Shown: positions 42,882 to 64,000 of the stretch, one piece after another
Layout: the number at the start of each line of letters is the position of its first letter
Position numbering within the stretch: position 1 is the stretch's first letter
Assembly (NCBI RefSeq): GCF_036669915.1
Contig: NC_089312.1
Span: 7,889,438 to 7,953,437 of the forward strand
Direction: 5' to 3'
DNA from: Pocillopora verrucosa
Taxonomy: Eukaryota; Cnidaria; Anthozoa; Scleractinia; Pocilloporidae
Length of the DNA stretch: 64,000 nt
Notes under the pieces: generated by a model
Told to the model about the DNA's origin: nothing
Databases searched by the model: none
Seen by the model: the letters and a program-made list of their open reading frames with translations, nothing else
Translations under genes and position numbers: made by a program

Positions 42882-44584
42882 ATGGCTGATAATCATCCTC
42901 CCCGAGCAGATGACGTGGCTCAGCAAGCACATAATGGCTTTGGACCACTTTCCGAGCTTCGTGGAAATATTGCTACGATCGCATCAACGATCGTGGTTGT
43001 ATTTAGTAGCGCGGTGCTTTTGTTCGTAGTGAAGGAGAACGAAAAGAGGGAAGGGATTCATTTTCTGGTGTTTAAAACAGCCTTGCTTACCTTGAGTGTC
43101 GTTCTCGGAGAAATAGTACGAAGATTGTGCCTAGTGTTTGAAGAGATTACACACAAGGACGCGAGATATCGAGGAAACTGGAAGGCTGTTCTCAAGACGA
43201 CTTTCACTTTCGATAATTTCGGTGGGATTTTAGTCGTCGCCATCGCTTCCGCTCTGATATTGTGTTTTGGGCTGTATGAACAATACGAAGTATTCTCTAG
43301 TCCAGGTTTCTCCATCTTGTTTTTCCTGAACTGTCTCGTGATTCCGCAGTTGTCGTTCCTTGTGGGTCTTCGACAGCTCTCTCCTGTAGAGACATCGGAT
43401 TTGAACGAAAAAGAAAACAAGAATGTGGCTGATGGGCTGGCTTGGGGCTATTACTTTGGTTATCTGAGGCTGGTACTGCCAAGACTGGAACATCGGATAT
43501 CAGAATCGGACCCATTTCGTCATAAGATAATAGACAAGAAGCTTTTCATTCTACTTCCAAAAACGTGCTTCACATGTGATGACATTGAGGAAGCGGATTC
43601 CAGGGTAAAATGGGTCGGCAATCTCCCGGAGAGTAAAATTAACAGGGGAGGAATTAAGGAGAGAAGTTACAAGCATGCGGTACATGAAATAGTGATGCCA
43701 GATGGGACAAACGAAAAGTACCACTTTATCGTGGAGTATGCCACGCCTCTGATGACCCTCTATGATATGTCTAAGTTCCAAGACGCCCAATTAACGGCTC
43801 CAGAGCGGGATCACCAGGTAGTGCGGTGACCATTTTTGATACACTTGGATTGTTATGTAATTTAATTTTTTACTGCCTCCTACCACAGGCCTGAGAAAAG
43901 CAATTGAGAAGCATGTGAAAAATGTTATCTCTTCCATTCAGAGTTTTTATGTGCTTGTCAAGTAGTTCTCCATGCCTCAATGTGAAAGCTTACATTATGC
44001 ATTAGCCATAGAGCCTGGACACCAGTATGTGTCAGGTCAGACACCAGATGTTGAAGCACCCAGGGAATAGCATTCATGTATTTGTTAGGTTTTGGAGGAT
44101 GGCAGATGATTTTAGGCTAAGATAACAACAGGAAGAAAAAAAAACAAATAAGCAAAAGAATATCAGGTGAATTGCTCTTACCACATTCTGTTCTTTTTTT
44201 TTATTTTTAATTTGAAAATTGATGATAAAATATGTGTACACCAAAAGCAATTCAAATTGGTTGTTTCATACATTGACCAGAAAAGTAAAATGAGAAAAGT
44301 TTAAAACTTCCTTCAAAGTTCCCATAGGCTGTATTTTTCTACCCCAGCCCATTTTTCGGTGGTTAAAACAACTCCTTTGCCTTCTTGTGCTGTATTGATA
44401 AAACAAACTCACAAACAGTTTAAAAACTGTATGTCATTTTGAGCAAAAAGAACAAAAAATGTGCATTTTAATTGTAATGTTCAAAGCAAATGATAATTAA
44501 GTCTTGAAATGTAAAATAAGATTTCATCTGTATGTTAAACATGAATTTCCTATATGTATGTATGTATGAATATATGTACATATA

Positions 44585-44628
<44 letters not shown>

Positions 44629-45343
44629 AAGTCTGCAGGTCGATTTTTGCGTGGAACAGTGCTCAATACGTTGAAGCAGAGCAGAATAAATATTATGAGA
44701 GGAAAAAAGGACGTAACTACATTTCCCGACAAGCCTGTTTCGTGAATCGCTTCACTCTTCAGGGGTTTAGTGAAGCGATTCACGAAACAGGCTTGTCGGG
44801 AAATGTAGTTACGTCCTTTTTTCCTCTCATAATATTTATATATATATATATATATATGAAAGTTGGACAAATCAATAAGACAACTTTTCTGTAACTCTGA
44901 GTTTCATGCTTATGTAGTCATTAGACCAATTTTCATGGCTGATGATCGCGTAAGTGTGAAACGCAGGGTCACAGAAAAGTTAAGTCTTATTGATTTGTCC
45001 AACTTTTAGACATACCATACTCTGCGAATGCATCGAGCACTACACCACAAGGATAGATCATAATCAAGATTTATTTACATATATAATTATATTATATATA
45101 ATTAAACTTTGTTTAATCCTTTTCTTTTTCTCTCTCTTTCATATCCTTTAGGTAGTGTTGTTCATTCGAAAACTGAAGGAAATTTTGGATAAGAGTACAG
45201 AATGTAGAGGAAGGTATGAATTGGTTCCATTTTCAGGAGATGAGGAGAAAAAGAAGATTGCAGATATCCTGGTTGAAATGCATAAAGCTGCCAATGTGGA
45301 GATGGATGAGGAAGCTGATGAAGTGAACATACCAGAACAGTGA
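42882..45343 (+). CDS. STING1: STING (stimulator of interferon genes), copy 1, intact
   Basis: STING is an ER-membrane dimer that binds cyclic dinucleotides made by cGAS-like enzymes and starts innate immune signalling. Exons 42882-43817 and 45152-45343 join in phase 0 (..ERDHQ, then VVLFIRK) and give 375 residues; human STING has 379. Four hydrophobic segments lie at about residues 30-50, 60-82, 113-136 and 141-163. The ligand domain starts [20 protein letters not shown]. Pocket residues equivalent to human Y167, R232, R238, Y240, E260 and T263 are all present (Y194, R255, R261, Y263, E285, T288); human S162 is Gly. The protein ends after the last helix with no TBK1/IRF3-recruiting C-terminal tail, as in other invertebrate STINGs. 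The intron (43818-45151) holds a TA microsatellite and two hairpin elements. It is the array member nearest the SIMC1-like gene. Confidence 0.94.
44588..44626. repeat. TA dinucleotide microsatellite
   Basis: About 19 TA units in the intron of STING copy 1. A shorter run at 44834-44857 sits on the far side of the adjacent hairpin. Confidence 0.9.
44686..44839. repeat. Perfect hairpin, 71-bp arms, in the STING copy 1 intron
   Basis: The left arm 44686-44756 and right arm 44769-44839 are exact reverse complements around a 12-base loop (CTTCAGGGGTTT). Arms contain ACATTTCCCGACAAGCCTG. AT microsatellite flanks both sides. Identity of the arms implies recent insertion or ongoing homogenisation. 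No coding capacity. Confidence 0.92.
44856..45010. repeat. Imperfect inverted-repeat element
   Basis: GAAAGTTGGACAAATCAATA near 44858 is mirrored by TATTGATTTGTCCAACTTT near 44988-45008. An inner pair, GAGTTTCATGCTTATG against CGTAAGTGTGAAACGC, is imperfect. It directly follows the perfect hairpin, so the two may be parts of one larger element. Confidence 0.65.
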
Positions 45344-46214
45344 CCGCTGTGAACAAAATGATATTGCTTATTGATTATAGGAGGGATCTGAGACATAAAT
45401 ACATCAGTCTATAAAAAACTGAGAACATTTTTGGAAAGTAGTATAGTCTATAAAGACAACTGACACAAGTACTATTGTGAAAATACCAAATTTTTTCTTT
45501 TTACACTTTTCTGATACAGTTGTTCACTGAAACTGTAATTTCACAACATTTTATACCAAGGAATCCTAAAGATACTTTGTTGATAGCTAATAAATATACT
45601 GATGTCCTTAACTGTCTGAGGGAGGCAGAAAAATGTGGAAGTTATTGTCACTTTCATACAAGACAAGTAGTGTCCTGGCTCCATCCATACTCCCCACCCC
45701 TCTGCCCCCCAGTTGTAGCATGTACACTTGCCTTGATGGCCAGCTATAAAGGTCATACATGGGTTTGATTAGTATTATATCACTTCACCCTTTCATTCCT
45801 GTGAAAACCCCCAAAAAGTTCTGTTTTCAATTTGATACATTTCAGGTGATGAAAAAGAAGAAAACAATATCATTATACCTCAAGTGTTTTACACTGGTGG
45901 TATTGGTTTATGCAGAGGTTTTATGTCATTTGGCAATAGCATTAATAACCCTTTGATCGTCCTTGTTCTCTTCTATGAGCCTAGCCAAGATGAAGGCAGA
46001 GCTAATTTTAACTGGCCCTCACATAAATATGGATAATCCAATATTGAAGCAATAGTTACCATTATACACCCTGATTTAAAGTCAATTTGTTTCTAGTTTC
46101 TATGAGGACATGCAACCTTCCCGTGAAAACCACAATTTTTAAACCCAACGGACTTTCAAGTGGGGGGCTCCAAAAGGTATAGGTTAGGAAAACGTTTTTA
46201 TTTCAGTTTTTCAT
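45344..46214. other. Spacer between STING copies 1 and 2
   Basis: Contains the copy 1 3' UTR. No coding exon, and no relic of the SIMC1-like gene of the kind seen in later spacers. The sequence is not obviously alignable with the other spacers until the promoter block near 46200. Confidence 0.5.
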
Positions 46215-46496
46215 TCGTAAGGGAAAGATCTCAAGAAACCGAAAGTTGCTGAAAGAGCACTATGAAACTTTGATTAACCCACCACGTCAGGGGGGCTTTC
46301 CCCCAAGGGTACACCTTCTGAACATCCTGACGTGCTCCTGGCCAATCAGGTCCAGAGAATTCATCTGGGGGATTACCCGAGTGAATAGCGTTCTATTTGA
46401 ATAAGTGATCTGCTCCCAACAGTTTGACGTATTTGTTTGAGGCCAACTTCACGAGTAACGTAAGACCATCGTGAGAAAGGAATAGTTTTCTCCACC
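46215..46496 (+). promoter_or_regulatory. Promoter and 5' UTR of STING copy 2
   Basis: An ISRE-like GAAACCGAAAGT lies at 46235-46246, followed by TTGCTGAAAGAGCACT. A CCAAT box GGCCAATCA lies at 46340-46348. Order and spacing match copy 1. A second IRF-like half-site pair in reverse (TTTCAGTTTTTC) lies just upstream at 46201. Confidence 0.6.
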
Positions 46497-47988
46497 ATGA
46501 CTGATAATCTTCTTCCCCGAGGAGATGACGTAGCTCAGCAAGCACATAATGGCTTTGGACCACTTTCCGAGCTTCGTGGAAATATTGCTACGATCACATC
46601 AGCTATCGTGGTTGTGATTAGTGGCGTGATGCTTTTGTTCGCAGTAAAGGATAACGAAAAGAGAGAAGGGATTCACTTCCTGGTGTTTACAACAGCCTTG
46701 CTTATCTTGAGTGTCGTTCTCGGAGAAATGGTACGAAGATTGTGCCTAGTGTCTGAAGAGATTAAACACAAACACGCGAGATATCGAGGAAACTGGAAAG
46801 ATATTCTCAAGACGACTTTCACTTTCAATAATTCCGGTAGTATTTTAGTTGTCGCCATCGCTTCCGCTCTGACACTGTGTTTTATGCTGCATGAACAATA
46901 CGAAGTTTTCTCGAGTCCAGGTTTCTCCATCTTGTTTTTCCTGAATTGTCTCGTGGTTCCGCAATTGTCATTCCTTGTGGGTCTTCGACAGCTCTCTCCT
47001 GTAGAGACATCGGATTTGAACGAAAAAGAAAACAAGAATGTGGCTGATGGGCTGGCTTGGAGCTACTACTTTGGCTATCTGAAGCTGGTGCTGCCAAGAC
47101 TGGGATATCGTATTTCCGAATCGGACACATTTCGTCATAAGATTACAGACGAAAAGCTTTTCATTTTACTTCCAAAAACGTGCTATACATTTGAAGAAAT
47201 CTCCAAAGCAGATGACAGGGTAAAATGGGCCGGCAAACTCCCCGCGAGTAAAATTAACAGGGCTGGAATTTTGGAGAGAAGTTACCAGCATGCGGTACAC
47301 CGCATAGAGATGCCCCGCCCAGATGGAACAGTGGATGAGTACCACTTTGTCCTGGAGTACGCTACGCCTCTTATGTCCCTGTACGAAATGTCAGGTCATG
47401 CAAAAGCCCCCTTGACTGGTCCAGAGCGGGATCATCAGGTGAACAAGTGTGATCTGTTGTAAAATTTTTGATATATGATAATAAATATTTGTTCTTAGAA
47501 TTTCTTTTTGAGGTAGTGTTTTTAATACAAATTTTGTAAGCGATTGTTGTAGCTTAACCCTTTAACTCCCAAGATCTGATTTTTATTCCCCCTTCTAGCT
47601 TAAACAAATTTCCTTGTAAATTAGTAACAAGAATTTAGCATTAAATCAAGATAACAACTTCTACCTGATAAGTTTGAGTATTCTCATTAACTGTTTGCTG
47701 GATAATTTATGAATATTATGGAGAAGTTACGGGTTAATCACTACTGAGAGCTGAAGGGTTAAGCTGATGCTTACACCAACCGAAACCATTTACCTTGTAA
47801 CCTAGGTGGTGTTATTCATCCGCAAGCTGAGGGAAATTCTGGATGACTCTGAGGAATGCAGAGGAAAGTATGAATTGGTTCCAATTTCAGGAAATGACAC
47901 AAACAAGATTGCAGATGTCCTTGTGGGAATGCACAGTGCGAGCAACATAGATTTAGAAGAGGAGACTGATGAGCAAACAAGGCAATAG
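46497..47988 (+). CDS. STING1: STING, copy 2, intact
   Basis: Exons 46497-47438 and 47806-47988 join in phase 0 and give 374 residues. It is close to copy 1 along the whole length: the same N-terminus ([20 protein letters not shown]), four membrane segments and the ligand domain [20 protein letters not shown]. Unlike copy 1 it has Ser at the position of human S162. The R232 and R238 equivalents are kept ([11 protein letters not shown]), but the human K236 position is Leu instead of Lys. The strand EYATPLMSL that carries the E260 and T263 equivalents is conserved. An insertion in the preceding loop ([13 protein letters not shown]) is shared with copies 3 and 4 but is shorter in copy 1. No C-terminal tail. 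The intron is only 367 bp and contains a family A MITE-like repeat at 47554-47762. Confidence 0.94.
47554..47762. repeat. TTAA-flanked MITE-like repeat, family A, in the STING copy 2 intron
   Basis: About 209 bp, from TTAACCCTTTAACTCCCAAG to GAGCTGAAGGGTTAA. TTAA stands at both ends with inverted CCCTT termini. The interior shares TCAAGATAACAACTT and GATAAGTTTGAGTATTCTCA with the copy at 1831. Confidence 0.8.
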
Positions 47989-48149
47989 AGCAGATAAGTG
48001 ACTACTGCTCCTCAGCAGCAGTATGGATGATGAAGGAACTCTGTTACACATTACACATGTATAGAGCTGTGTTTCTGAGTGTAAAAAAATACAGTGTCAG
48101 AGATGTTTGATCCTGATCTTAAGGGGGGGGGGTAAAAGATCTTTTCTTA

Positions 48150-49408
48150 AAAGGGCACAGATGTTCATTAGAAATTTTGATCCGAGTCTTGTGGCTCAAC
48201 CTTTTATTTCACTCATAAAAGATACCAATTGATGTTGGTTGAGGATGCAAATATTGTTTTTTAGCAAAGGGACAGTCCTTATTGGGTTTCATGCAGGAAT
48301 ATTTCACACTTCACAAATTTATAAAGGAAAACTTCAAATCTCACTTCATCATTCCTTTCTGTAAAATTCAGGCATAACATTAATTTTGGGTTTTATAATT
48401 ATGCATCCACTGTAAACTCTCTTTACAAAGTTAAATTAAACTGAAACAGCCTAACACTTTATCTCATGCAATCCCAAAAGATACCAAATTAGGCAGCTGA
48501 AAATATCACTTTTTGTTATGATGTACACTCTGAGAGGCCAAATGTAACAATATGTGCTCCAATCCTTTCCTGGGCTTGATAGCTCAAGGCTTTGAGTTGT
48601 TTTGAATTCTTTAACCTCTGACATCTCACACATTTATGTTGATTGTGTGGTGAAAACATTCAAAGGCACAGCCTTTCATTTGTGTAAGTGGAGAAGTTTA
48701 TAGTCTAATTTAATTAACTCTTCCCTATAGCCTAGCAGATAACACAGTTTGTAATGAGCCCTTTATGGGATAGTAAAGTAAACATGAACAGAGATTTATA
48801 AAACATGCTGAATCATTTAGTTTTTCTCAATTATCATTTGTCTTTGCTTTGCTCTGTGAAATACTTGAACTGATGATTGTTGTGCTCTTAATCTGTAAAC
48901 ATATTAATTATCCCTTTACATCTTTATATCAGTATGCATATTCTTCATACTATTCTGAATTGCACATTTCCTTTGGTACTGACAAGGAGAATCTGTGTTT
49001 CAATCACAGCTTTTTAGTTTAGCAATCATTTCCTTTACTTCCATGGTCTTTATAATAAATATATCAGTGGTACTACTCTAAGGAGAAATTAGATACTTGT
49101 CACTCTAGGATTTAACGGGTTAAAAAATAAAACTTGCCACAAAGCACCTGTGTGTTGACTTTGACTGTACTAGAACACCAGTACCTATATAAGTTTGGGA
49201 AAAATTATAACCAACAACTTTGGTGCTTCTTTGAAGGAGAGTCTTCCCCCTTTGAGCTTTGCCACAGCTTTCAATTTTTTGTTGTTGTTTCAAATCAGAG
49301 GTTCTCTCAATTGCAGAATAAACTACAAAGATTTCACTATGGAAAAGTCTTAGTTACAAAACTGCTTAGAAAAAAAAACACTCAGGGAAGGCCTTAGTGA
49401 TCAAGTCC
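48150..49408. repeat. STING array spacer block, part I (first copy)
   Basis: Sequence downstream of STING copy 2 that recurs after copy 3 (about 55340-56283) and after copy 4 (about 61663-62630). Shared landmarks include AGATTTATGTTGATTGTG-type, CACAGCCTTTCATTTGTGT, GGGATAGTAAAGTAAACATG and CTGTAAACATATTAATTA sequences. It is not coding. It shows that the tandem unit is much larger than the gene. The block after copy 3 lacks about 350 bases present here (48270-48625). Confidence 0.8.
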
Positions 49409-49502
49409 CAGGTAAAAATATAAGGTGGGATCCCGCCAATCCCACCTGGGATCCCAGGTGTGTCCCAGGTGGGATCCCGCCTTTTTCAGGTGGGATCCCG
49501 GG

Positions 49503-49815
49503 TGGGATTATGGAACATCCCGCATGGGATCCCACCTGGGATTATGGAACATCCCGCATGGGATCCCACTTGGGATTATGGAACATCCTGCATGGGATCC
49601 CACCTGGGATTATGGAACATCCCGCATGGGATCCCACCTGGGATTATGGAACATCCCGCATGGGATCCCACCTGGGATTATGGAACATCCCGCATGGGAT
49701 CCCACCTGGGATTATGGAACATCCCGCATGGGATCCCACCTGGGATTATGGAACATCCCACATGGGATCCCACCTGGGATTATGGAACATCCTGCATGGG
49801 ATCCCACATGGGATC
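49503..49815. repeat. 34-bp minisatellite, nine units
   Basis: The unit ATTATGGAACATCC begins at 49507, 49541, 49575, 49609, 49643, 49677, 49711, 49745 and 49779, exactly 34 bases apart. The rest of the unit is CGCATGGGATCCCACCTGGG. Since 34 is not a multiple of three, all three plus frames stay open here and give long WDYGTSRMGSHLG-type frames. These are artefacts of the repeat, not a gene. Confidence 0.97.
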
Positions 49816-50667
49816 CCGCCTTAAATTCCTAATAGCATCCCACCTGGGAAAGCACATTCCGGGCAGGATTAAACCTAGAATCCCACCAATCCCTCTTGGG
49901 ATCCTGCCTCAAATTTCAGATAGTTTCCCACCTGGGAAATCATATCATAGGCGGGATTGCATCTGGGATCCTGCCATTCCCAGTTTAGACCCTGCATAAA
50001 ATTACAGATGGCTTCCCACTTTCAGAAAAATCCTTTGAGGGATCCTGTTTATCACTGAAGACCACAGATTTATGAAATGTACCAGATAGGATATCTTAAA
50101 ATTAAGAGGATAAAATTTTCTAGGTGAGCTATAGACCCCATCAATCCACTGAGGGTCCAAAACTTTCCAACTAGCTATAGAACATACTGACACCTCCAAT
50201 GGAGTCCCATTGTCTTACCAAACTGTTGATCATAAATGATTCAAACAGTACATGAATACACAGACTATAAGTGATAAAGATCTCATAATTTATTTGCAAT
50301 GAACCAGCGTGTGTTTGACTTGTTTCATTAACAAATTTCTTAACCGAACATTCCTAAAGAATAACAGCACAACTCAGCATATAAATTACTTTTTCTTCAT
50401 CATTTAAGCAGACCATCTACAGTGTAATAAGGCTCAACCTTTAAAAAAATTGGCTGTTGTGTATCAAAGAATAAAAGAAAGACAAAACTTCAATAATTCA
50501 TGTTATCAAAATTTTGACAAAGGTAATGATTGAAAGTCTGCTCTCTCTTCAGTCGAATTTTTCAAAGCAAAGCAAGGTCAGAATGTTCCCAAATGTGACT
50601 AAAGTAATCTCGAAACCTTACTCATAGATTTATTTCATTGTAAAGTGTAAGCTTAGGAAACTGCAGC

Positions 50668-50726
50668 ATGCAAGCGACCAATTCGATTCTCAGAATTATT
50701 TTAGTTTCAGTTGCGCTGAGCGTTAG
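50668..50726 (+). other. Signal-peptide-like first-exon candidate inside the fold-back element
   Basis: ATG at 50668 opens MQATNSILRIILVSVALSV, a typical secretion-signal pattern, and runs into a good donor (AG then GTAAGC) at 50727. The phase (2) does not fit the nearest downstream open stretch, so no gene model could be closed. It may be captured host sequence or chance. Confidence 0.2.
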
Positions 50727-51144
50727 GTAAGCTTAATTCAAGCCGTTATTTCTATTCTTTGATAAGATTTTGATCACGTAACGAATATGGCAATTTGTAC
50801 TCACCACAAACTTCTAAAAATCCTAGCTTTAAATGGCCACTCGATCGTTGTTTGAACCAGTCGATATGTCAACCGTTAATTGTCCCTTCTTTTAAGTTCA
50901 CGGCGCCAACGACTTTCTTTTCATTTAAAACACTCACGCTGTTCTCGTTTTCCCATTAAACCACAATAAAAACAATCTTTAGAAGTGTTATATTAAGCAA
51001 AACAGTTGGGAAAAGAAACAACTTGAAGCAAGAGCGGTTAACCGATGAAAAGTACATTCAAAGATGAGCGCCAAATGGAGTTTTCTTTGTTTCCGATCAC
51101 GGGCATACGTGGACCTTTTAGCAAAGAGAATCCGCTGGCTTGAC

Positions 51145-51737
51145 CCATTGCAGTCTCAAGAGTAGCGCGCAACATTATTCTGTCTCTTCTGATCGGTTCT
51201 CCTCTTTTAGATGGTGGTACCTTGGATTCATGTTTTGATGATGACATAAATAATGATGTGAATTCACTCCATGTAGAAATAATCGACAAGAATCGAACAA
51301 GAATGCACGATTTGTGGCCGAAAGTTTCCGAGGAAAGAAAGACTCGAAACCCACTTGAGTTATGTTCACGGCGAAGGTGAGAAACAACACAAGCCAATCA
51401 CATTAGGAAGTATAAGAGACTAGGTGATCCCAGTGTACCAGTACCCAAATCAACAAGGCTTGACCACAACAAGCGTTCAGCAACACGTTCCAACACAGCT
51501 AGCCATCTCGATTCCTCAGTCGGTCTTTCCAGTGAACTAGCAGTGTTGCCAACAGAGTCAAGTGCGTCTCATAACGGAGAAAACATTTGCACGAGAGACA
51601 GAAGCAACTACATGCGATTACAGAGGTGCATTGGAATTCTCGTCTGCAAATGGTTATGCACAGTCCGAAGCGTTACCGAGCTTGGAAAGGGGTGGAGAGA
51701 ACGAAGATACAAGGTTGTCATTTTATACTACAAGTAA
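51145..51737 (+). pseudogene. Unrecognised coding-like stretch with one internal stop, inside the fold-back element
   Basis: One plus-strand frame stays open for about 195 codons except for a single TGA near 51380. It reads ..SPLLDGGTLDSCFDDDIN.. MHDLWPKVSEERKTRNPLEL before the stop, and KYKRLGDPSVPVPKSTRLD, SSVGLSSELAVLPTESSAS after it. The composition is protein-like (mixed charge, Ser-rich linker) and unlike the flanking AT-rich DNA. I do not recognise a family. A GGTGAG donor lies at the stop, so it could instead be an exon end. An overlapping minus frame of 119 codons is also open, so the strand is uncertain. Confidence 0.3.
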
Positions 51738-52455
51738 AATTTTATACCAGACCTACAAGGTATAGAAAAATTTTGTTGATCGCTGACTCAGAGAAGAACA
51801 ACAAGTAAACTTTAAAGCTGTTATTATCGAACTGTGACTTGTCTTTTCATTTGTATGTAAAGAAGGAATTGTATTTTGCACCAAAAATATAAAGAAGTAA
51901 TATTTTTTAGGAGGTCCAGTGATTGGGACATTTAAGAAATTAAGTTATGAAAAGAAACTCGTTTTGTACTTCTCACTACTAACAAGTCTTGTTTTAAAAA
52001 TATTTTCAGATCAGAGTTTCAAATAAAGCAAATTGAAGAAGTAATTTCAAAGGTGTATTTTCTCAAAGGGAACAGTGACCACCTCTGTCTTGTCCGCATG
52101 CCAAATATTTGCGGAGTGTGTGGATGATCCATAAGTATTGGAACTCTCACAAAAACGTTTTGTAAGAATAAAAACAGCAAAACAATATTTTTGTAGGTGG
52201 GATAAAGAATCCCAGGTGGGATATGTAAATCCCGACCAGGATCCCGGGTAGAATGCATAAGTCCCACCTAAGATCCTGGGTGGGATGCAGGAATCCCGCA
52301 TTAAATGCGGGATCCCAGGTGGGATCAAATTTTCATCCCAGGTGGGAAAGGTGGGATCCCACCACCTAAGGCGGGATCCCGCCATTCCCACCTGGGATCC
52401 TGGGTGGGATTGCCGGGATCCCGCCTATATCCCGCCTGACATTTTACCTGGGGTC

Positions 52456-53150
52456 ACCTAAACTGTAAAAATGGTTTGAAAGAATTCATAGGGAGATCCC
52501 CTCTAAATCATGCAAGTATCCAAAGTATTCTTTTGTGTAGAATATGTTTAAAAATATCCCTAATTGCACCCCTCACACAGAGAGGATTTTGTTCAGAATC
52601 ACCTTCCCCCATCCATCAATCACAAGAGATGTCATTCCTCTATAAATACCCGTAAGGTTTTTAGAATCCTCACCCTATCCAATTCCAAAAGGCCCACCAA
52701 GAGTGGTTTGGAAATTTCTTGGAGCCACAAACAGAGGACAGGTTTTCGATTCAACTTCAGTCTGTGACAATTTAACTCCCCTGATACAGATCCCAGGTTT
52801 ACTTATGGCCAGTGATGTTCCTGAGAAATAATGAGGAAAATTTATAAATAAGCGGCACACCAAGAATAATCCTCCTTGTGATTAATTGAATACCTTTGGT
52901 CTCAACGAGCCCAATGTTTTCCACTTGACCATGGGGTTTAGTTATCAATAATTTGATTACAACATCAAAGCCCCTATGTAAAGTTCAAATTATTAATTAT
53001 TAGAAGAAGAATAAGAATTTGAATGTCATTAATAATAACAACAGTCAAGGATCGAGATAGTTCTTCTCTCTTTAGCTGGACAATAACCTAGACAGAGAGA
53101 GAAAGCTGAAATAATTTTTCTTTAAATTGAATCACGGTCTTTATACATGA
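52456..53150. repeat. STING array spacer block, part II (first copy)
   Basis: Homologous to about 56290-57060 and 62631-63240. Shared landmarks include AACTGGTTTGAAAGAATTCA-type, CCCCTCACACAGAGA, CAGATCCCAGGTTTACTTA and TCAATAATTTGATTACAACA sequences. In the later spacers this block follows part I directly, which is how the 3-kb insertion is recognised. Non-coding. Confidence 0.8.
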
Positions 53151-53239
53151 TGTGAGAACCACCTCGTGCTCGAGGTAGTTTCAACCTAAGGAGGCTCCAC
53201 GCGGTTTAGGAAACCAACGCATTCTCCTTTCGGTTTAAC

Positions 53240-53499
53240 ATTCCTCCGGAAAAAGGTTTTCGAAACTGAAACTTGCTGAGAGAGCACTTTCAATCTCCGA
53301 ATTTCCCCTCGCGGGGGGAAGCCCAAAGACACCCTCAAGACTCCTGGCCAATCAAGGTCAGAGTTTTTATCTAGGGGATTCCCAAAATAAATCATGTCGG
53401 GAGTCAAATCGATCTGCCTTCCCCAGTTTAACGCATTTCTTTGTGACCATCTTTACGAGTACGTAAATTCTGCGTTTAGGAGGAAATATTATATACACC
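53240..53499 (+). promoter_or_regulatory. Promoter and 5' UTR of STING copy 3
   Basis: GAAACTGAAACT at 53262-53273 is an exact match to the ISRE consensus GAAANNGAAACT. It is followed by TGCTGAGAGAGCACTTTCAA. A CCAAT box GGCCAATCA lies at 53346-53354. The promoter is preserved although the coding start below it is disrupted. Confidence 0.62.
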
Positions 53500-55183
53500 A
53501 TGGCTGAAAATCGTCTTCCTCGAGGAGATGACTAATAGCCCAACAAGAAAATAATGGCTTTGGACCACTTTTCAAGTGTCGTGGGAAAACTGCTACTGTC
53601 ACTTCAGCTATTATGGTTGTGATAAGTGGCGCGACGCTATTCTTCGCGGTGAAAGATAAAGAGAAGGAGTTTCATTTCCTGGTGTTTACAGCTGCCCTGC
53701 TTACCCTCAGTTTTGTTTTCGGTGAATTATTTCGAAGGTTGTCCTTGTTGTCTGAGGAGTTCAAACACAAACGCACGAGATATCAAGGAAAGTTGAAGGG
53801 TATTTTTAAGACCACTTTCACCTTCGATTATGGCAAGTGTATTTTAGTCGCTGCTATCGCTTCCGCTCTCATATTATGTTATCAGTTGTATGAACAATAC
53901 GAAGTTTTCTCTCGCCCAGAATTCGCCATTTTGTTTTTTCTGAACTGTTTCGTGGCTCCGCAGTTGTTGTACCTTGTGGGTCTCCGACAGCTCTCTCCTG
54001 TGGAAACATCGGATTTAAACGAAAAAGAAAACAAGAATGTGGCTGATGGGCTGGCTTGGAGCTACTACTTTGGTTATCTGAAGCTGGTACTGCCAAAACT
54101 GAAAGATCAGATTGGCAGATCGGAGCTTTTTCGTTACGAAATAACAAGGAAAAAGCTTTTCATTTTACTGCCCAAAACGTGCTTCACTTGTGCTGACATC
54201 AAAGACGCAGACCCAAGGGTAAAATGGGTCGGTCATCTCCCAGAGCTTAAAATTAGTAGGGGTGGAATTAAGGAAAGAATTTACAAGCATTCGGTACATA
54301 AGATAGAAATGCCTCGCCCTGATGGAACAGTAGAAAGGTACCACTTTATCTTGGAGTATGCCACACCTCTGATGTCCCTTTATGATATGTCTGAGCATGC
54401 AGACGCTTCCTTTAATCGTGAGGAGCGGGATCATCAGGTAGGCTAGTTTGTAGTATTTTCCCTTTGATTTTCAAAGTGGAAGAGAATCCTGATCTAATTA
54501 CCACAAACAATATTGTGGCTGATCCCTGAGTAATTGGGTCAATTTCTGCTGTGTATATGCCACTGGCCTCTTAGAACCCACCCTCCCCCAACCCATTATA
54601 ATCTATTCTGTGGTCATTTGTAGATCCCATCTAAGGTGCTTTTAAGTGAATGTTACTTTCACTATCCCAACTTAGTCACTTTCTGTTTTATGTATCTGCC
54701 TTAGAAAGCCTTTTAAGTAGCTCATCTTAAAATGAATTGACTCATTATCCATGAATCTTCCCAATTGGCCATACATTGTCTCACCCCAAAATCTGGAAGA
54801 GTGCAACCCCATTGTTGGAACTGCATTGAAATTGCAAACCCATTATTAAATAGTAAATCCAGCAGTGAAAATGCAAGCCATCCAGTAGCACATCCCCATT
54901 AGCCTTTTATTAGGAAGTACCCCCCTCCCCCCCCTTAGGACTGGTCCTCATAAATATGATTTGTTTGAGGTGGGATGCACATCTAACTGGAACTTCTCTT
55001 CATTGTAACTTATAGGTGGTGTTATTCATCCAAAAATTGAGGGAAATTCTGGAGAACTCCGAAGAGTGCAGAGGGACTTATGAATTAGTGCCAATTTCAG
55101 GAAATGATCCAAATGAGATTTCAAATGTCCTGATTGGGATGCATAATGCTGCCAACATTGAGATGCACAATCCAGAAGCTTAA
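53500..55183 (+). pseudogene. STING1: STING, copy 3: normal start lost by frameshift, rest open
   Basis: The ancestral ATG at 53500 is kept ([11 protein letters not shown]) but the frame meets TAA after 11 codons. Copy 4 has TTGGCT where copy 3 has TAATAGCC, a net +2 change. Past that point the frame is fully open to 54437, and the second exon 55016-55183 joins in phase 0. The first in-frame Met after the lesion is at 53613 ([15 protein letters not shown]), in the middle of membrane segment 1. Use of that start would give about 330 residues with a shortened first segment. The ligand domain looks intact: [30 protein letters not shown] (R232 and R238 equivalents) and EYATPLMSL. The C-terminus ends about ten residues before copy 4 because of a small insertion making TAA at 55181. 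It may be a recent pseudogene, an N-truncated gene or an assembly error. Confidence 0.8.
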
Positions 55184-55339
55184 ATGGAGTGCACAGACCA
55201 GAACAAGAACAGCTCTAAACAAAATAATGCTAATGTGGTGTAGCAAGAAACTCAGTCTGTAATGTTGTACACATAAGTTCCTGATATTTTACAGGACCTG
55301 CAATATAGTAAATGAAATATTTCTTTTCTGATGCATGTA

Positions 55340-56283
55340 GGAATGAGGAGCCTTTGAAGGGGCAAAGATGTTGATTACAAATCTTTATCTAAATCTTGTG
55401 GCTTATACTTTTATTTCACCCATAATAGATACCACTTGATGTTGGTTAAGGAGACTAACATTGTTTTTTAGAGAGGTTAGCAAAGGGACAGTCCTCATCT
55501 TGCAGATTTATGTTGATTGTGTTCTGAAAACATTCAAAGGCACAGCCTTTAATTTGTGTAAGTGGAGAAGGCTATAGCCTAATTTATTTTGCCCTTCCTT
55601 ATAGCCAAGCAGATTACATAATTTGTAGTGAGCCCTTAGTGGGATAGTAACGTAAACATGAACAGAGATTTATAAAACAGGCTGAATAGTTTAGTTTTTC
55701 TCAATTTTCATTTTTCTTTGCTTTGCTCCGTGAAATACATAAATTGATGATTGTTGTGCTCTTAATCTGTAAACATATTAATTATCCCTTTTACACCTCT
55801 ATATCAGTATGCATATTCTTCCTACTATTCTCAATTGCACATTTCCTTACAAGTAGAATTTGTGTTTCAATCACAGCTTTTTAGCTTGACATTTATTTTC
55901 TTTATTTCCACAGTCTTTATAATAAATATTTCAGCAATATTACTTTAAGGAAAAATTTGATACTTGTCACTCTAAGGATTAAAAGGGTTAAAAATAAAAC
56001 ATGACACAAAGCAGCTGTGTGTTAACTCTGACTGTGCTAGAATACCAGTACTTATAAGTTTGGGAGAAATTATAACCAACAACTTTGGTGCTTCTTTGAA
56101 GGAGAGTCTCCCCTTTCAAGCTTCGCTACAGGTTTAAGAGTTTTTTTTGTTTGTTTCAAGCCAAAAGCTCCCTCAATTGTAGAATAAGCTACCAATAAGA
56201 TTTTACTACAGAAAAATCTTAGTTATAAATCAGTAACTGCTAAGAAAAAAAAAACACACAGTGAAGTTCTCAGTGATCAAGTA
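55340..56283. repeat. STING array spacer block, part I (second copy)
   Basis: Aligns to 48150-49408 with an internal deletion of about 350 bases near 55500. It runs without interruption into part II at about 56290, giving the empty-site version of the fold-back element insertion (GTGATCAAGTAGCCTTAATT at 56273-56292). Non-coding. Confidence 0.78.
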
Positions 56284-56289
56284 GCCTTA

Positions 56290-57060
56290 ATTGTAAAACT
56301 GGTTTGAAAGACTTCAGAAGGAGATCCCCTCTAAGTCTTGCAAGTACCCAAAGTATTTTTTGTGTAGAATATGTTCAAACATCCTTATTTTCACCCCTCA
56401 CACAGAAAAGATTTTGTTTGGAATCCCCTCTCCCAGTCCCCCAGAAGAGATATAATTCCTCTATATATACACTTAAGCTTTAAGAATGCTCACCCTATCC
56501 CACCCCAAGTGGTCCTCCAAGGATGGGTGAGGAAATTTCCTGGAGCTGCAAACAGTGGACAGGTTTTCAGTTCAACTTCATTCTGTGGCAATTCAACTCC
56601 CTTCATGCAGATCCCAGGTTTACTTAAGGCCAGTGATGTTCCACTGTGTAGGCTCAACAGGGAAGGAATAATGGAGCGAATTTAGAAATAAGCTGCACAC
56701 CAAGAATGTCAAGATCCCTGCCCACTAAGAGTGATAAATTTCACTTTACGCTTTCAGTCTTTGCATGCCTCTGTATGCTTCAGTATCTCTCTATGAAGGC
56801 ACCCCCTTTTCCCAGAAAGGAGGTTGACCAGGCAAACAAACTAATTGCCTACTTGGCAAGCATTGTTATGAAATCTGCTTCCTCCTTGTTATTAATTGAA
56901 TACCCTTGGTTTCGACAAGCCTGATCGCTTGACCTTAGGGTTTAATTATCAATAATCTGATTACAACATCAAAGCCCCTATACAAAGTTTAAATTATTAG
57001 TTTTTAGAAAAAGAATCTGAATCTGAATGTTACTACTAATAATAATAATATCAGTCAAGG
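56290..57060. repeat. STING array spacer block, part II (second copy)
   Basis: Aligns to 52456-53150 and 62631-63240. It carries an extra ~145 bases near 56715-56890 not seen in the first copy. Non-coding. Confidence 0.75.
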
Positions 57061-57384
57061 ATCGTGATAGCTCTTCTCTTATCCAGTACTGTTCTTTAGC
57101 TGAACAATAACCTAGTCCCTGGCTGACATTCTTTATCCAGATCCTTTCATCGTCTAACCGAGTCACAGGACACCCAGGTTTCAGATAGGTTTCCTCCCGA
57201 TTGTAATTACGAATCAAGGGTCGTGAATGAGAAAAAAAATTTGTCCATCCTTGTAACTGAACCTGAACAATTCAACTATTCTATAAATCTAGAGGGAGCT
57301 GGTGAATTGTGTGGGAACAACACCTCAATGTACGCTATCAATTCATGGTTGCACTCGCAGTCCGCCGTTGCTACCTTTTCACCA

Positions 57385-57575
57385 CTCAGTCTTCATCATC
57401 GTTGAAGTAACAATCAAAACGTTTCGCGTCATTTACAGTGCAAAGTGGCTTGCGTTGGCCGCAAGTTATGTAAAAGTATGTGTGGGTGCATTTCCCAAAG
57501 GAACGAAGGAAATATGATCCCATTTGGCACTAGAATTAAACGGCTGTTGGGGCCCCCCGATGCCCCTCGGTGAAC
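57385..57575 (-). pseudogene. Relic of the SIMC1-like gene start and promoter (spacer 3-4)
   Basis: On the minus strand, ATG at 57432 is followed by ACGCGAAACGTTTTGATTGT. The SIMC1-like gene has GCGCAAAACGACGTGATTGT after its ATG. Similarity runs about 16 codons and contains a +2 frameshift, so the SUMO-motif reading frame is broken. The homology continues upstream of the ATG into the promoter: TTTGGCACTAGAATTAAACG here against ATTGGCACTGGCTTTAAACG near 42300. It is a fragment only; no further exon 1 sequence is recognisable. Confidence 0.62.
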
Positions 57576-57809
57576 CAGGCCTGAATAAAGCCTGAATATG
57601 GAGGAGCTATCTCCAGCAAGCTACTTTTAACTGCCCTCCATATTAATGATGGTATTTGAATTCATGCGAGCTTAGAATACCATTGTCAGCCTGATGGTGA
57701 AGTAGTTTTTCTTTAATTTAACTACGGTCAAACCTCGTGCTCGAGGTGGTTTCAACCTGCGCGGGCTCCACGCGATGTAGGAAACCAACGGGTTTTCCTT
57801 TCGGTTTTT

Positions 57810-58101
57810 CAGTCATCTGGGAGAGGTTTTCGAAACTGAAACTTGCTGAGAGAGCACTTTCAATCTCCTAACAAATGATTTCATCACGCCCTATTTAAGG
57901 ATGTTCCCCAAGCAGGTGGGCAGCCCAAGGACAAACACAAGACTCTTGGCCAATCAAGGCCAGAGTTTTTATTGAGGGGATTTCCCAGGTAAATCATGTT
58001 GCGAATCAAATTGATCTGCTTTCCTTAGTGTTGCGCATTTCGTTGTGACCATCTTTACGAGTACGTAAATTCTGCGTTAGGAGGAAAATATTATATACAC
58101 C
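57810..58101 (+). promoter_or_regulatory. Promoter and 5' UTR of STING copy 4
   Basis: GAAACTGAAACT, the exact ISRE consensus, lies at 57832-57843. TTGCTGAGAGAGCACTTTCA follows. The CCAAT box GGCCAATCA lies at 57948-57956. The last 70 bases before the ATG are nearly identical to copy 3. Confidence 0.62.
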
Positions 58102-59841
58102 ATGGCTGAAAATCATCTTCTCCGAAGAGATGACTTGGCTCAACAAGAAAATAATGGCTTTGGACCACTTTTCAAGCATCGTGGGAAAAATGCTACTGTC
58201 ACTTCAGCTATCTTTGTTGTGATAACTGGCGCGATGCTATTCTTCGCAGTAAAAGAGAAAAATTTCCTGGTGTTTACAGCTGCGCTGCTTATCCTCAGTT
58301 TTGTTGTCGGGGAACTTTTACGAAGATTGTCCTTGTTGTCTGAGGAGTTCAAACACAAAAGCACGCGATATCATGGAAAGTGGAAGGGTGTTTTTAAGAC
58401 AACTTTCACTTTCGAAAATAGCAGGTGTATTTTAGTCACTGCTATCCTTTCTGCTGTAATATTATGTTATCAGTTGTATGAACAATACGAGGTTTTCTCT
58501 CGCTCAGAATTCGCCATTTTGTTTTTCCTGAACTGTTTCGTGGTTCCGCAGTTCTTGTTCCTTGTAGGTCTTCGACAGCTCTCTCCAGTGGAAACAGCGC
58601 ATTTGAACGAAAAGGAAAACAAGAATGTGGCTGATGGGCTGGCTTGGGGCTATTACTTTGGTTATCTGAAGCTGAGACTCAACAGGAGTTTAATTTGCCT
58701 AGTTATTTCTTGCTGCCAAGACTGGAAGAACAGATTGCCAAATCGGAGCAATTTCGATATCAGATAAGAGAGAAGAAGCTTTTCATTTTACTGCCCAAAA
58801 CGTGCTTTATCTATGATAACATCATTGATGCAGATCAAAGAGTAAAATGGGCCGGCAATCTGCCAGAGATTAAAAGAAGCAGTGGTGGAATTAAGGACAG
58901 AAGTTACAAGGATGCAGTTCATGAGATAGAGAAGCCCCACCCAGATGGAACAGTGGAAAAATACCACTTTGTCTTAGAGTATGCCACGCCTCTGAAGACC
59001 CTCTATGCTATGTCTGAGCATGCAGACGCCTTCTTAAATCGTGAGGAGCGGGATCATCAGGTAGGCCTGTTTCTATTATTTTCCCTTTGATTTTCAAGGT
59101 GGATGAAAGTCCTGATCTGATTACCTCAAACAATACTGTGGCTGATCCTTGGGAAGGATATTTGGGTCAAATTTTGCTGTGTATGTGCCACTGGCAACTG
59201 AGAACCTCCCCCCCCCTCCCCATTCTCATCTATTCTGTGGTCATTTATAGATCCCATCTAAGTGACTTTTAAGTGAATTTTATTTTCACTATCACAACCA
59301 GGTCACTTTCTGTTTATACATCTACCTTAGAAAGCCTTTTAAGCAGCTCATCCTAATGAATTTGACCATGAATCTACCCATTTTTAAATCCCTACTAAAC
59401 TATAAGTTGTCTAACCCCAAAATCCTGAAAAAAGTGTAACTCCATTATAGCAACTGTAGTGATATTGCATACTGTTATTATAGTAAATCCAGTTGTGAAA
59501 ATGCAAGCCATCCAGCAGCACATCCCCATTCCCCTTTCATGAGGAAGTACCCCCCCCCCCTTGAGACTGGTCCTCATAAATATGATTTGTTTTAGGTGAG
59601 ATGCAGTCTAACCGGAACTTCTCTTCATTGTAACTTATAGGTAGTGTTATTCATCCAAAAATTGACAGAAATTCTGGATAACTCTGAAGAGTGCAGAGGG
59701 ACTTATGAGTTGGTGCCAATTTCAGGAAATGACCCAAATGAGATTTCAAATGTCCTGATTGGGATGCATAATGCTGCCAACATAGAGATGCACGATCCAG
59801 AAGCTAATGGAGTGCACAGACCAGAACAAGGCCAGCTCTAA
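58102..59841 (+). pseudogene. STING1: STING, copy 4: frameshifted inside the ligand-binding domain
   Basis: Exon 1 (58102-59060) starts normally, [15 protein letters not shown], and encodes four membrane segments, the connector and [16 protein letters not shown]. Right after GGTTATCTGAAGCTG (near 58673) 38 bases replace the three found in the other copies, a net +35. The frame changes and meets TAA at 58765-58767, giving a 221-residue product with membrane domain only. The original ligand-domain frame resumes at [14 protein letters not shown] and is open through exon 1 and exon 2 (59641-59841). In that remainder the R232 equivalent is Ser ([11 protein letters not shown]), while R238, E260 and T263 equivalents are kept. 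A truncated membrane-only protein, a pseudogene or an assembly error are all possible. A short intron is unlikely because no GT donor precedes the insert. Confidence 0.82.
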
Positions 59842-59977
59842 ACAAAATAATGCCAACTCAGTATAACAAAAAAACTCAATCTGTAACATGGTACACATAA
59901 ATTGCTGATATTTTATGGGACCTGTTATATTCTAATGAAATATTCCTTTAGTGGTGCATGCAGGAATGAGGAGCCTT

Positions 59978-61660
59978 CCTTTATCTTTCTTCTGTTTTCA
60001 GCTAGTATATTTATGGTTTACCCAAAAAACGATTGTTATTTAATGGTACCTGCAGAAATCCAGATTTTACTTCTGAAACCCCATGGTTTTAATGACCAAA
60101 AAAATGAAACTTTTTTATAGTTATTTATTATATTGAATCCTAACAAATAACTGATGGACATTTTATAGTATGCCTGTTGCATGTTGCTCTGAACAATCTG
60201 GGAGGCTAAAATGTTTTATGGAGGTTTTGAGAAAGAGAACAAGTATCCCTGTTCCTTCCAATCTCCTTCTGACTCTCAACTTCCTAAGTTTGGTAGCTAG
60301 AAGGGTTTGATCATTTTTATGTTATTTGAAATTTTTTTTAGCCTGTTTGAATTTATTTTAGCCTAATTGATACTTTGGGTGATGAACTGCACATAGATAT
60401 TTAGCATGTCAATGAAGACAAAAATCTAGTTGCATAAATAACTCATGGTGAATAATTTGTTATGATCTAGTAGTTATGATTGTCATTTCTGCTTTGCCAT
60501 TTTCAATGACTGCTTAAATTGAAGGTTCAGTCCTCAGCTGTGTGTCTTTCAGAATGACCAAGATTCTTCAGTCAGACCCTACTGTCATTTATTCACCACT
60601 TCACAGATTTATTTGGAACCAACACAATGACCAGCTCCCAGTTGGCTTGTCAGCTCAGTTGGTAGAGCAATGCACTGGTATTGCAGAGGTCATGAGTTCA
60701 AATCCCGTACAGGATTAGATTTTTTTTTCAGGCCTTAATTATTTTCACCACTGCTTAAGTAGTATAACTGCAAGGATAGGTTCCATATTCATTTCTTCAA
60801 CTACAGTTCACATATATGATTTTCACATATTTACAGTCAACCAAGATCCTCTTAATCATGGGCTCATCATAATTTGGAAGACCCACAGCTACAGATTGTA
60901 TGAGCATGCTTAAGTTGCTAGTTGTTGCATTTTAATTCTGTCAATAAATTATTGTCTATCATACCCTTTCTAATTCATTTGGACATAAAGAAGTAGATAT
61001 TTTGGCCTGGATTATGTGAAAATATCCTTATCCCTACCCCACCCTCAGAAATAATTATGTCTAGAGTTCCTTCCTATTTCCAAACCCATTGAGAAGATAA
61101 GTGGCTGTCAGAGTTTTTCAAATACCCACCCTGCCCTCATTATGATTGACCCTTCATAGGGTGGATGGGTACATTGTCTAGAAACACAAATAGTCTTCAG
61201 GTTTTCAGTTCAATTTCATTCTACAAATATTCATCTTTGTGGAATGCAAAATTTAGATTAGACTTGAATGAACAAAGAAAACTCAAAGAGAGATGACAAA
61301 TTACTTTTCATGAACTCTTGAAAGTACCCCAAAACATGATATTTTGAAATATTTTGAAAAAATAGTAACAATTCATAACAATTTCAATTTGCCCTCAAAG
61401 CTACACTTCTCAGCCAAATATTCAGTTCTCTGACACATCAGCCATCGTACAACTGCCTTAAGGGTTTATTAAATTTTATTAGATATCTTCCAACATGTGC
61501 CCATTGCCACCAGCTCATCGAAAAAACCTCAGTAAATAAGCAAATCATGTGAAATTTTGCAACATTTTAAATTGATTAATGTTTTATATATAGCTACAGA
61601 GATAATCATATACTGCACTGACATATATTTTCCTCAACAATAAATAACCCCAACCTGATT
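59978..61660. other. Extra ~1.7-kb stretch in the spacer after STING copy 4
   Basis: Homology with the region after copy 3 breaks at GGAATGAGGAGCC near 59978 and resumes as block part I near 61663. The intervening sequence contains the SINE at 60644 and otherwise no gene or recognised element. Confidence 0.5.
60644..60860 (+). mobile_element. tRNA-derived SINE copy
   Basis: 60644-60716 folds as a degraded tRNA: A-box-like GTCAGCTCAGTTGGTAGAGC, a seven-base anticodon loop CTGGTAT (GGT, threonine-like) and B-box GTTCAAATCCC. A T-run follows at 60720-60728, then a body with CAGGCCTTAATT and GCTTAAGTAGTATAACTGC. Mismatches in the acceptor and T stems argue against a working tRNA gene. Confidence 0.7.
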
Positions 61661-61662
61661 TT

Positions 61663-62630: not shown

Positions 62631-63240
62631 AACTGGTTTGAAAGAATTCATAGGGGGTTCCCCTCTAAATTATGCAAGTATCCAAAGTATGTTTTTGTGT
62701 AGAATATGGTCACATATAGCCCTAATGGCACCCCTCACGCAGAGAAGATTTTGTTTGGAATCACCTTCCCCCAGTCCCTCAGAAGAAATGTCACTCCTCT
62801 ATAAATACCCATAAGCTTTTAGAATCCTCACCCTATCCCATTCCAAAAGGCCCTCCAAGGATGGGTGAGGAAATTTCCTAGAGCCACAAACAGTGGACAG
62901 GTTTTCAATTCAACTTCATTCTGTGGCAATTCAACTCCCCTCATGCAGATCCCAGGTTTACTTAAGGCCTGTGATGTTCCCCTGTCCAGGCTCAAAAGGG
63001 AAGGAATAACGGAGCAAAGTTATAAATAAGCGGCACACCAGGGATAATCCTCCTTGTGATTAATTGAATACCCCTGGTCTCGACGAGCCCAATGTTTTCC
63101 ACTTGACCATGGGGTTTAATTATCAATAATTTGATTACAACATCAAAGCCCCTATGCAAAGTTCAAATTATTAGTTATTAGAAAAAGAATATGAATCTGA
63201 ATGTTATTAATAATAATAATAACAGTTAAGGATCGTGATA
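62631..63240. repeat. STING array spacer block, part II (third copy)
   Basis: Aligns to 52456-53150 and 56290-57060. Non-coding. It leads into the SIMC1-like relic and the fifth STING promoter. Confidence 0.75.
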
Positions 63241-63509
63241 GTTCTTCTCTCTTTAGCTAGACAATAACCTAGACCCTGACTGACATTCTTTATCCAGATC
63301 CTATCATCTTACAGAATCACAGGACACCCAGGTTTTAGATAGATTTCCTCCTGATTGTAATTACGAATCAAGGGTCGTGAATGAAAAAAAGACACATTTA
63401 TCTATCATTGCAACTTAACCTAGACATGTCAACGACATCTTACAATCCAGAGATAGCTGGTAAATTGTGTGGGAATTACACCTCAGTGTACGGTATCAGT
63501 TCATGGTTG

Positions 63510-63700
63510 CACTCAGTCTTTATCATCGTTGAAATAACATTCAAAACGTTTCGCGCCATTTACATCACAAAGTGGCATGTGTTCCACGCAAGTTGTGTAA
63601 AAGTATCTGCATTTTCTGTAGGAACGCGGAAACATGGTCCCATTTGGCACTAGAATTAAACGGCCCTTGATGCTCCTCGATGCTCCTCAGTGAACCAAGC
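63510..63700 (-). pseudogene. Relic of the SIMC1-like gene start and promoter (spacer 4-5)
   Basis: On the minus strand the ATG at 63559 is followed by GCGCGAAACGTTTTGAATGT, against GCGCAAAACGACGTGATTGT in the SIMC1-like gene. Upstream of that ATG, CCCTTGATGCTCCTCGATGC at about 63664-63683 matches CCCTGATGCTCCTTGATG near 42322 in the gene's promoter. It has the same structure as the relic at 57385, so both derive from one duplicated unit. Confidence 0.62.
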
Positions 63701-63934
63701 CTGAATGAAGCCCAAATATGGCGGAGCTATCTCCAGCAAGCTACTTTTATCTGGCCTCCATATTAATGATGGTATTGGAATTCATGTTGAGCCTGATGGT
63801 GAAATAATTTTTCTTTAAATTTAATTACGGTCATTGCACATGATGTGAGAACCACCTCGTGCGCGAGGTGGTTTCTGCTAAGGAGGCTCCACGCGGAGTA
63901 GGAAACCAACGTATTCTCCTTTCGGTTTTTCATT

Positions 63935-64000
63935 CCTCTGGAAAAGTTTTTTTCCGAAACCGAAACTTGCTGAGAGAGCACTTTCAATCTCCGAACAAAT
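63935..64000 (+). promoter_or_regulatory. Promoter of a fifth STING copy (gene beyond the window)
   Basis: GAAACCGAAACT at 63956-63967 is an ISRE match, followed by TGCTGAGAGAGCACTTTCAA and TCTCCGAACAAAT as upstream of copy 4 (57841-57876). By the spacing in copy 4, the ATG would fall about 225 bases past the window end. Confidence 0.6.

Follow-up and report, generated by a model that had tools for sequence, protein, structure and literature searches.

A tandem array of six STING loci in the coral Pocillopora verrucosa, with shared predicted promoter sites and uneven divergence of the two coding halves

The DNA analysed here (the window, 64,000 nucleotides of Pocillopora verrucosa contig NC_089312.1, or C1:7889438-7953437) carries the first four of six STING copies (c1 to c6) that form a tandem set, old in origin. 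The array is of a known kind, coral STING expansion, and is larger than first reported. On balance, we favour the view that it constitutes an IRF- and NF-kappaB-inducible set of receptors in which one output module is combined with diversified sensors, where inducibility and ligand differences are both predicted from the sequence.

Results and discussion

Extent of the array and structure of the copies

The genome searched comprises 353,415,432 bases in 52 contigs (numbered C1, C5, C8 and so on below). All genome-wide match counts (STING, Mab-21, IRF) are lower bounds, and exon junctions were read from the DNA alone. The Pfam domains STING_TM and STING_LBD (the latter being the ligand-binding domain, LBD) match four head-to-tail loci at 42,882-59,841, with STING_LBD E-values of 3.2e-41 for c1, 9.3e-38 for c2, 5e-40 for c3 and 5.8e-29 for the second piece of c4; c4's first piece falls short of the LBD cut-off, yet contains STING_TM. 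The same four loci were recovered by tblastn over the whole window (queries c1 exon 1, c2 exon 1 and c2 exon 2), which found no further STING copy there (remaining matches E >= 0.22). The four loci head to tail within 17 kb described in the initial annotation are thus confirmed. In each of them, a long first exon is followed by a short second one, with a phase-0 CAG|GT...AG junction between the two, and c1 (375 amino acids) and c2 (374 amino acids) are open across both exons. The exons are as follows.

42882..43817, + strand: c1 STING exon 1 (312 amino acids: transmembrane region and most of the LBD; Pfam, tblastn)
45152..45343, + strand: c1 STING exon 2 (end of the LBD; tblastn, sequence)
46497..47438, + strand: c2 STING exon 1 (314 amino acids; Pfam, tblastn)
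47806..47988, + strand: c2 STING exon 2 (tblastn, sequence)
53500..54437, + strand: c3 STING exon 1, disrupted (tblastn)
55016..55183, + strand: c3 STING exon 2 (tblastn)
58102..59060, + strand: c4 STING exon 1, disrupted (tblastn)
59641..59841, + strand: c4 STING exon 2 (tblastn)

A fifth promoter had also been proposed at the right edge of the window. This block is real (53107-53301 matches 63800-63995 at 89%) and leads to c5 (C1:7953619-7954584), which is followed by c6 (C1:7957127-7958035). Both are open in both exons, the lone stop counted inside the PF15009 match of c5 lying just past the exon-1 donor. Six copies, four of them open (c1, c2, c5 and c6), therefore stand in one array of about 25 kb within a 36.6-Mb contig, at ATG-to-ATG distances of 3.6, 7.0, 4.6, 6.1 and 3.5 kb from c1 to c6. 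The earlier picture of a tandem array of two-exon genes with their own promoters is supported and extended to six copies; as for its 'at least five STING genes', the number of loci stands, but c3 and c4 are disrupted.

The search of the whole assembly that had been suggested at that stage revealed at least eight STING loci. The sequence search gave nine matches, with c4 counted as two pieces, and PF15009 gave 11 matches in the same eight loci, the extra three being c1 exon 2, c2 exon 2 and the first piece of c4. PF15009 is over the cut-off in all eight (in c4 through the second piece). The STING transmembrane family PF23417 was detected by Pfam in c1, c2, c3 and the first piece of c4, and the corresponding region in c5, c6 and the C8 copy comes from alignment with c2 only. 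Two loci are dispersed: C8:13098212, open in both exons (the C8 copy), and C1:79356 (the C1:79-kb copy). No relative was confirmed in viral and prokaryote contigs.

In exon 1 of c3, the ATG opens a frame of 11 codons in all that ends in TAA, after which a shifted frame is open from 53532; the first ATG of this frame (53613) lies inside the first hydrophobic stretch. In exon 1 of c4, a net +35 bp insertion near 58,675 causes a frameshift. Besides these lesions, the frames of c3 and c4 are open. Neutral change at 0.14 per site (half of the c3-c4 synonymous divergence, dS) should have given each copy about seven stop gains, so either the lesions arose recently or constraint on the genes lasted until lately. 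We regard c3 and c4 as probable recent losses within a birth-and-death process. Rescue of c4 by splicing was considered: there are 22 frame-keeping GT-AG pairs (68-215 bp), but conserved coding sequence would be lost, and this solution is not favoured.

Likely orthologues of coral receptors with different ligand preferences

The closest solved structures to the STINGs of the array are chains 8gjz, 8efm and 8efn. Judging by the residues described in PMC9980059, we take 8gjz and 8efm to be Sp-STING1 and 8efn to be Sp-STING3 of Stylophora pistillata. According to the available text of that paper, S. pistillata has seven STINGs and 42 cGAS-like receptors (cGLRs), and the preferences measured for the Sp-STINGs differ. 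The pocket of Sp-STING1 contains S189, Y194, R261 and Y263, that of Sp-STING3 contains N178 and S275, and the 3'3' preference of Sp-STING3 is tied to the N and S positions (PMC9980059, same text).

Over the LBD, c1 is identical to 8gjz at 119 of 132 positions and to c2 at just 97 of 132, and c6 is identical to 8efn at 125 of 130. In the LBD tree, c1 groups with 8gjz (support 98) and c6 with 8efn (support 99). This closeness suggests that c1 and c2, and likewise c6 and the other copies, separated before the split from Stylophora. It is likely that c1 is the orthologue of Sp-STING1 (2'3'-type) and c6 that of Sp-STING3 (3'3'-type), and through them both measured specificities would likely be present in one array. 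The diversified cyclic-dinucleotide recognition suggested at the outset gains support from this match of c1 and c6 to receptors with different measured preferences.

The alignment shows that c6 retains N and S at the two positions given for Sp-STING3 specificity. Position 189 is variable: G in c1 (unlike the S189 of Sp-STING1 in PMC9980059) and c4, S in c2, c3 and c5, and N in c6, the C8 copy and the C1:79-kb copy. R261, Y194, Y263 and T288 are retained in c1-c4, and the stacking aromatics and lid arginine (Y194, Y263 and R261 of Sp-STING1) also in c5, c6 and the C8 copy. The C1:79-kb copy has an open exon 1 with an ambiguous start position; its LBD groups with c2 (support 90) and both aromatics are altered (Y194 to N and Y263 to H). 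It is perhaps a receptor that has lost cyclic-dinucleotide binding. Our own structure model, built on a five-row alignment, was poor (mean pLDDT, the predicted local distance difference test score, of 39) and was not used.

The same domain is found in PDB entry 5cfp, which we take to be the STING of Nematostella vectensis, with an LBD that is 45-55% identical to those of c1-c6. Nematostella STING, unlike that of the array, is known as a single-copy gene. We also searched for the TBK1/IRF3 C-terminal tail motifs of vertebrate-type STING: neither occurs in exon 2 of c1-c4, and none was seen by eye in c5 and c6.

The count of cGAS-like genes, likewise suggested at the outset, yielded at least 59 Mab-21 matches in the genome; matches do not equal genes here, and Mab21L-type genes may be among them. 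They form clusters at C5:13.01-13.13 Mb, C13:4.03-4.05 Mb and C12:0.37-0.43 Mb, which suggests that the cGAS-like enzymes may have been tandemly expanded too. The Stylophora set is thus similar in having several STINGs in one coral and many cGAS-like/Mab-21 enzymes (42 cGLRs there, at least 59 matches here), but differs in that the available text on it deals with neither tandem linkage, promoters nor gene conversion (PMC9980059).

Predicted promoter sites shared by c1-c5

The c1-c5 promoters share three predicted sites whose positions hardly vary: one of interferon-response type (interferon-stimulated response element, ISRE), one that is kappaB-like, and a CCAAT box. The strict ISRE pattern used for the promoter test was GAAANNGAAASY, and GAAANNGAAA is the predicted promoter site considered beside the kappaB site. 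The individual sites are listed below, with distances from the ATG.

42613..42625, + strand: c1 ISRE-like GAAAGTGAAAGTT, 269 bp 5' of the ATG
42749..42759, + strand: c1 kappaB-like GGGGATTCCC(C), 133 bp 5' of the ATG
46235..46247, + strand: c2 ISRE-like GAAACCGAAAGTT, -262
46292..46301, + strand: c2 strict kappaB match GGGGCTTTCC, -205
53262..53274, + strand: c3 ISRE-like GAAACTGAAACTT, -238
53374..53383, + strand: c3 kappaB-like GGGGATTCCC, -126
57832..57844, + strand: c4 ISRE-like GAAACTGAAACTT, -270
57976..57986, + strand: c4 kappaB-like GGGGATTTCC(C), -126
63956..63968, + strand: c5 ISRE-like GAAACCGAAACTT, 247 bp 5' of the c5 ATG, which is outside the window

Upstream of each of c1-c5 stands GAAANNGAAANTT, which has eight matches in the window against 0.79 expected (the five promoters, one c4 exon and two elsewhere). 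A 26-nt pattern around the ISRE matches five times in 353 Mb, always in the c1-c5 promoters, and its reversed control does not match at all. Among the eight loci, the strict ISRE is found at -238 to -270 in six (c1-c5 and the C8 copy), CCAATCA at -152 to -160 in seven (c1-c6 and the C8 copy; -159 in c1) and GGGGATTNCC at -126 to -144 in six (c1-c6). When the ISREs of the five promoters are aligned, the eight columns of the GAAA cores show no change, in contrast to the three spacer columns (hypergeometric probability 0.0034 for the core alone, with 46 of 90 ungapped columns invariant). The two strict sites occur together in none of 836 overlapping 400-bp windows in 1-42,200 and in 0.0004-0.0020 of Markov simulations of each c1-c4 promoter. 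Moreover, the unlinked C8 copy retains the same distances, with the ISRE at -258 (simulated chance of an ISRE there 0.00085) and CCAATCA at -156.

The genome encodes at least five IRF DNA-binding domains. Immune cells of Nematostella that were activated by poly(I:C) show a joint rise of STING1 and IRF2, according to the available text of PMC13319465. In human, a STAT1 site in the STING promoter is critical for interferon induction, and depletion of STAT1, STAT2 or RELA lowers STING (PMC5298905, available text). A promoter site for interferon-type induction is thus described in human as it is predicted here, although the action of NF-kappaB at the promoter itself is left open in that text, and human has one STING whereas the array has several copies with promoter sites that are predicted only.

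Uneven divergence of the membrane and ligand-binding halves

For the comparison between copies, the coding sequence was cut at codon 198 into a membrane half and an LBD half, with codon 181 as an alternative cut. The subgrouping of c1 and c2 against c3 and c4, already noted in the initial annotation, is backed by 85 of 100 informative coding sites. Between c1 and c2, 63 of 710 sites differ in the tract 42859-43568, against 138 of 539 outside (0 of 200 shuffles), while c1 or c2 differs from c3 or c4 at 20.5-21.4% of sites inside the tract and 27.5-32.0% outside. Within subgroups, silent sites of the LBD half have diverged two to four times as much as those of the membrane-coding half (membrane/LBD dS of 0.146/0.474 for c1-c2, 0.094/0.408 for c3-c5, 0.200/0.466 for c3-c4 and 0.158/0.308 for c4-c5; Fisher 0.003 at four-fold sites for c1-c2). 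Between c1/c2 and c3/c4/c5, none of the six pairs has a significant silent-site gap; in c1-c5, c2-c3, c2-c4 and c2-c5 there is more protein change in the LBD though dS is not higher. A bounded tract of low divergence is thus found for c1-c2 and a contrast between modules for c3-c5, with weaker contrasts for c3-c4 and c4-c5. The simplest reading would be gene conversion largely limited to the membrane half in two subgroups, together with faster protein change in the LBD.

The array had been ascribed to repeated unequal exchange of a 5-6 kb unit. The homologous spacers do support tandem duplication; however, the spacing is uneven (3.5-7.0 kb) and the coding halves differ in history, so that gene conversion probably also acted. 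Conversion across subgroups (c1 with c4 and c2 with c3, as sharers of the S/G189 block) was examined too, but the runs were not significant; the four cluster statistics were 0.0245 for 13|24 sites and 0.25, 0.996 and 0.073 for the others, and the idea was dropped.

A conversion limited to one module has been described for TLR1/TLR6 (PMC2077338, available text). As proposed for the coral array, these mammalian genes encode immune receptors arranged in tandem, with gene conversion homogenizing one module and the other diverging. They belong to another family, though, and in that text nine species with orthologue/paralogue contrasts are compared, whereas we have one genome, with counterparts in another coral for the LBD only.

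A candidate mechanism and its alternatives

In the mechanism that we propose, each open copy would be a STING of the endoplasmic reticulum membrane with a ligand set of its own among the cyclic dinucleotides that the animal's many cGAS-like enzymes or bacteria produce. Signals from all copies would converge on a common output by way of a membrane module that gene conversion keeps similar. With their IRF- and NF-kappaB-type promoter sites, the copies would be inducible by the pathway that they start, giving positive feedback. c6, with its 3'3'-type pocket, kappaB-like and CCAAT sites and no strict ISRE, may answer to NF-kappaB alone. We may wonder whether the array as a whole is a self-amplifying receptor bank with IRF/NF-kappaB promoters, an output module kept by conversion and varied sensors. 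In such a bank, the 2'3'-type receptors would depend on ISRE plus kappaB and c6 only on kappaB, and alarms of viral and of bacterial origin would be kept apart both at the receptor and at the promoter. This complete scheme is speculative, and we put it forward very tentatively.

Several observations weigh against an inducible receptor set with a common output. On the receptor side, support is low at the deep nodes of the LBD tree (29-52, and 31 for the c3-c4 node), and the assignment of 8gjz and 8efn to Sp-STING1 and Sp-STING3 is a probable one, based on their residues. Exon 2 of c1-c4 carries no TBK1/IRF3 motif that would link STING to IRF. As regards the promoters, those of c1-c5 are homologous and their common sites are partly due to shared descent. 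The position-matched kappaB site of c2 at -129 is GGGGATTACC, which departs from the consensus; c6 lacks a strict ISRE, the nearest one having one mismatch and lying on the other strand; no kappaB site was found in the C8 copy promoter, and neither strict ISRE nor kappaB in that of the C1:79-kb copy, where distances are measured from the open frame, as the start is ambiguous. The strict ISRE also occurs in exons of c1, c2 and c4 and in two other places (five of the ten window matches), in a c5 exon and at least once in the other stretches examined. As regards the modules, the c3-c4 contrast has a P value of 0.054 (0.34 at four-fold sites), that of c4-c5 becomes 0.07 with the cut at codon 181, and conversion across subgroups is not supported overall. 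Finally, c1, c2 and c5 also show a lower membrane-half dS when compared with the C8 copy, and silent-site constraint could give the same pattern.

The best-surviving alternative, unlikely but not negligible, is ordinary tandem duplication with birth and death, by which the copies would be largely redundant, the likeness of the promoters a matter of descent and the differences between modules a matter of constraint. It agrees with the disruption of c3 and c4, with the homology of the c1-c5 promoters, with the low membrane-half dS in the C8-copy comparisons and with the abundance of tandem duplicates in two corals, almost a third of predicted genes (PMC10236652, available text). It accounts less well for c1 and c6, which match receptors with different measured preferences, for ISREs whose spacer columns vary while their core columns do not, and for the promoter spacing kept by the unlinked C8 copy; the silent-site gap, moreover, is significant within subgroups and in none of the six pairs between them.

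Recurrent positive selection on the LBD is, in our opinion, rather improbable. The nonsynonymous divergence (dN) of the LBD does exceed that of the membrane half in c1-c2, c3-c4, c3-c5 and c4-c5, and also in c1-c5, c2-c3, c2-c4 and c2-c5, where dS is not higher; LBD omega (dN/dS) reaches 0.69 (c2-c5 and c4-c5), and dN is above dS in two 40-codon windows of exon 2 (0.306/0.235 for c1-c3 and 0.275/0.239 for c1-c4). These two windows are small, however, and c4 is disrupted. As no computable pair reaches an omega of 1 over a whole half, relaxed constraint would suffice, and the arms race evoked in the initial annotation is not borne out despite the faster LBD protein change in several pairs.

That allelic haplotypes or repeats were joined end to end during assembly is most improbable: corals have diploid, sometimes heterozygous genomes, yet with dS of about 0.09-0.65 between the halves of c1-c5 and separate counterparts of c1 and c6 in another coral the copies are very unlikely to be alleles, the insertions between copies have no counterpart, and the array is inside a 36.6-Mb contig.

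The inducible set with one output and several sensors, which we favour, has to be placed relative to what is already known, namely the expansion of STING in corals and the differing ligand preferences. The c1 and c6 orthologies in one array, the promoter grammar of c1-c5 and the module-limited divergence were not found described: our literature searches, which covered running text, gave no description of STING arrays, of these promoters or of this conversion. STING is not mentioned in the available text of PMC10236652 and PMC12005167, and that of PMC12314368 contains no mention of STING, TMEM173, gene conversion or interferon. Nor did we find, in the literature consulted, an account of how such a STING set arises and is controlled. 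For this animal group, an antiviral programme that operates in the absence of known cytokines is reported (PMC13319465, available text). With the array, the animal may be able to sense several alarm molecules and answer by a single output, and testable predictions follow on the coupling of one signalling output to several cyclic-dinucleotide inputs.

Other features of the window and the gene upstream of c1

The c1 intron contains a perfect 71-bp inverted repeat with a 12-bp loop and flanking TA repeats (44686-44839), which looks like a foldback or MITE-type (miniature inverted-repeat transposable element) insertion. In the c2-c3 spacer, a 34-bp minisatellite is present in 9.5 copies (49491-49814), with related stretches near c3 at about 52353-52430. 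A tRNA-like stretch seen by eye 3' of c4 (about 60640-60720) is perhaps a short interspersed nuclear element; the ARAGORN scan found 0 tRNAs. No cGAS-like gene was noticed in the window, where the Pfam scan covered sixteen open reading frame (ORF) entries only.

Upstream of c1 and head to head with it, the minus strand carries a SIMC1-like gene (39371-42227; 39371-40840 matches PDB entry 7t5p with E 4.8e-15). The ORF at 41817-42227 is a possible first exon of this gene; it has no Pfam match and no meaningful PDB match, and two acidic SUMO-interaction-like motifs are visible by eye. SIMC1-SLF2 brings SMC5/6 to viral replication centres (PMC9708086, available text). The c1 ISRE is about 390 bp from the ATG of the ORF at 41817-42227, so that c1 and its SIMC1-like neighbour could share a bidirectional promoter.

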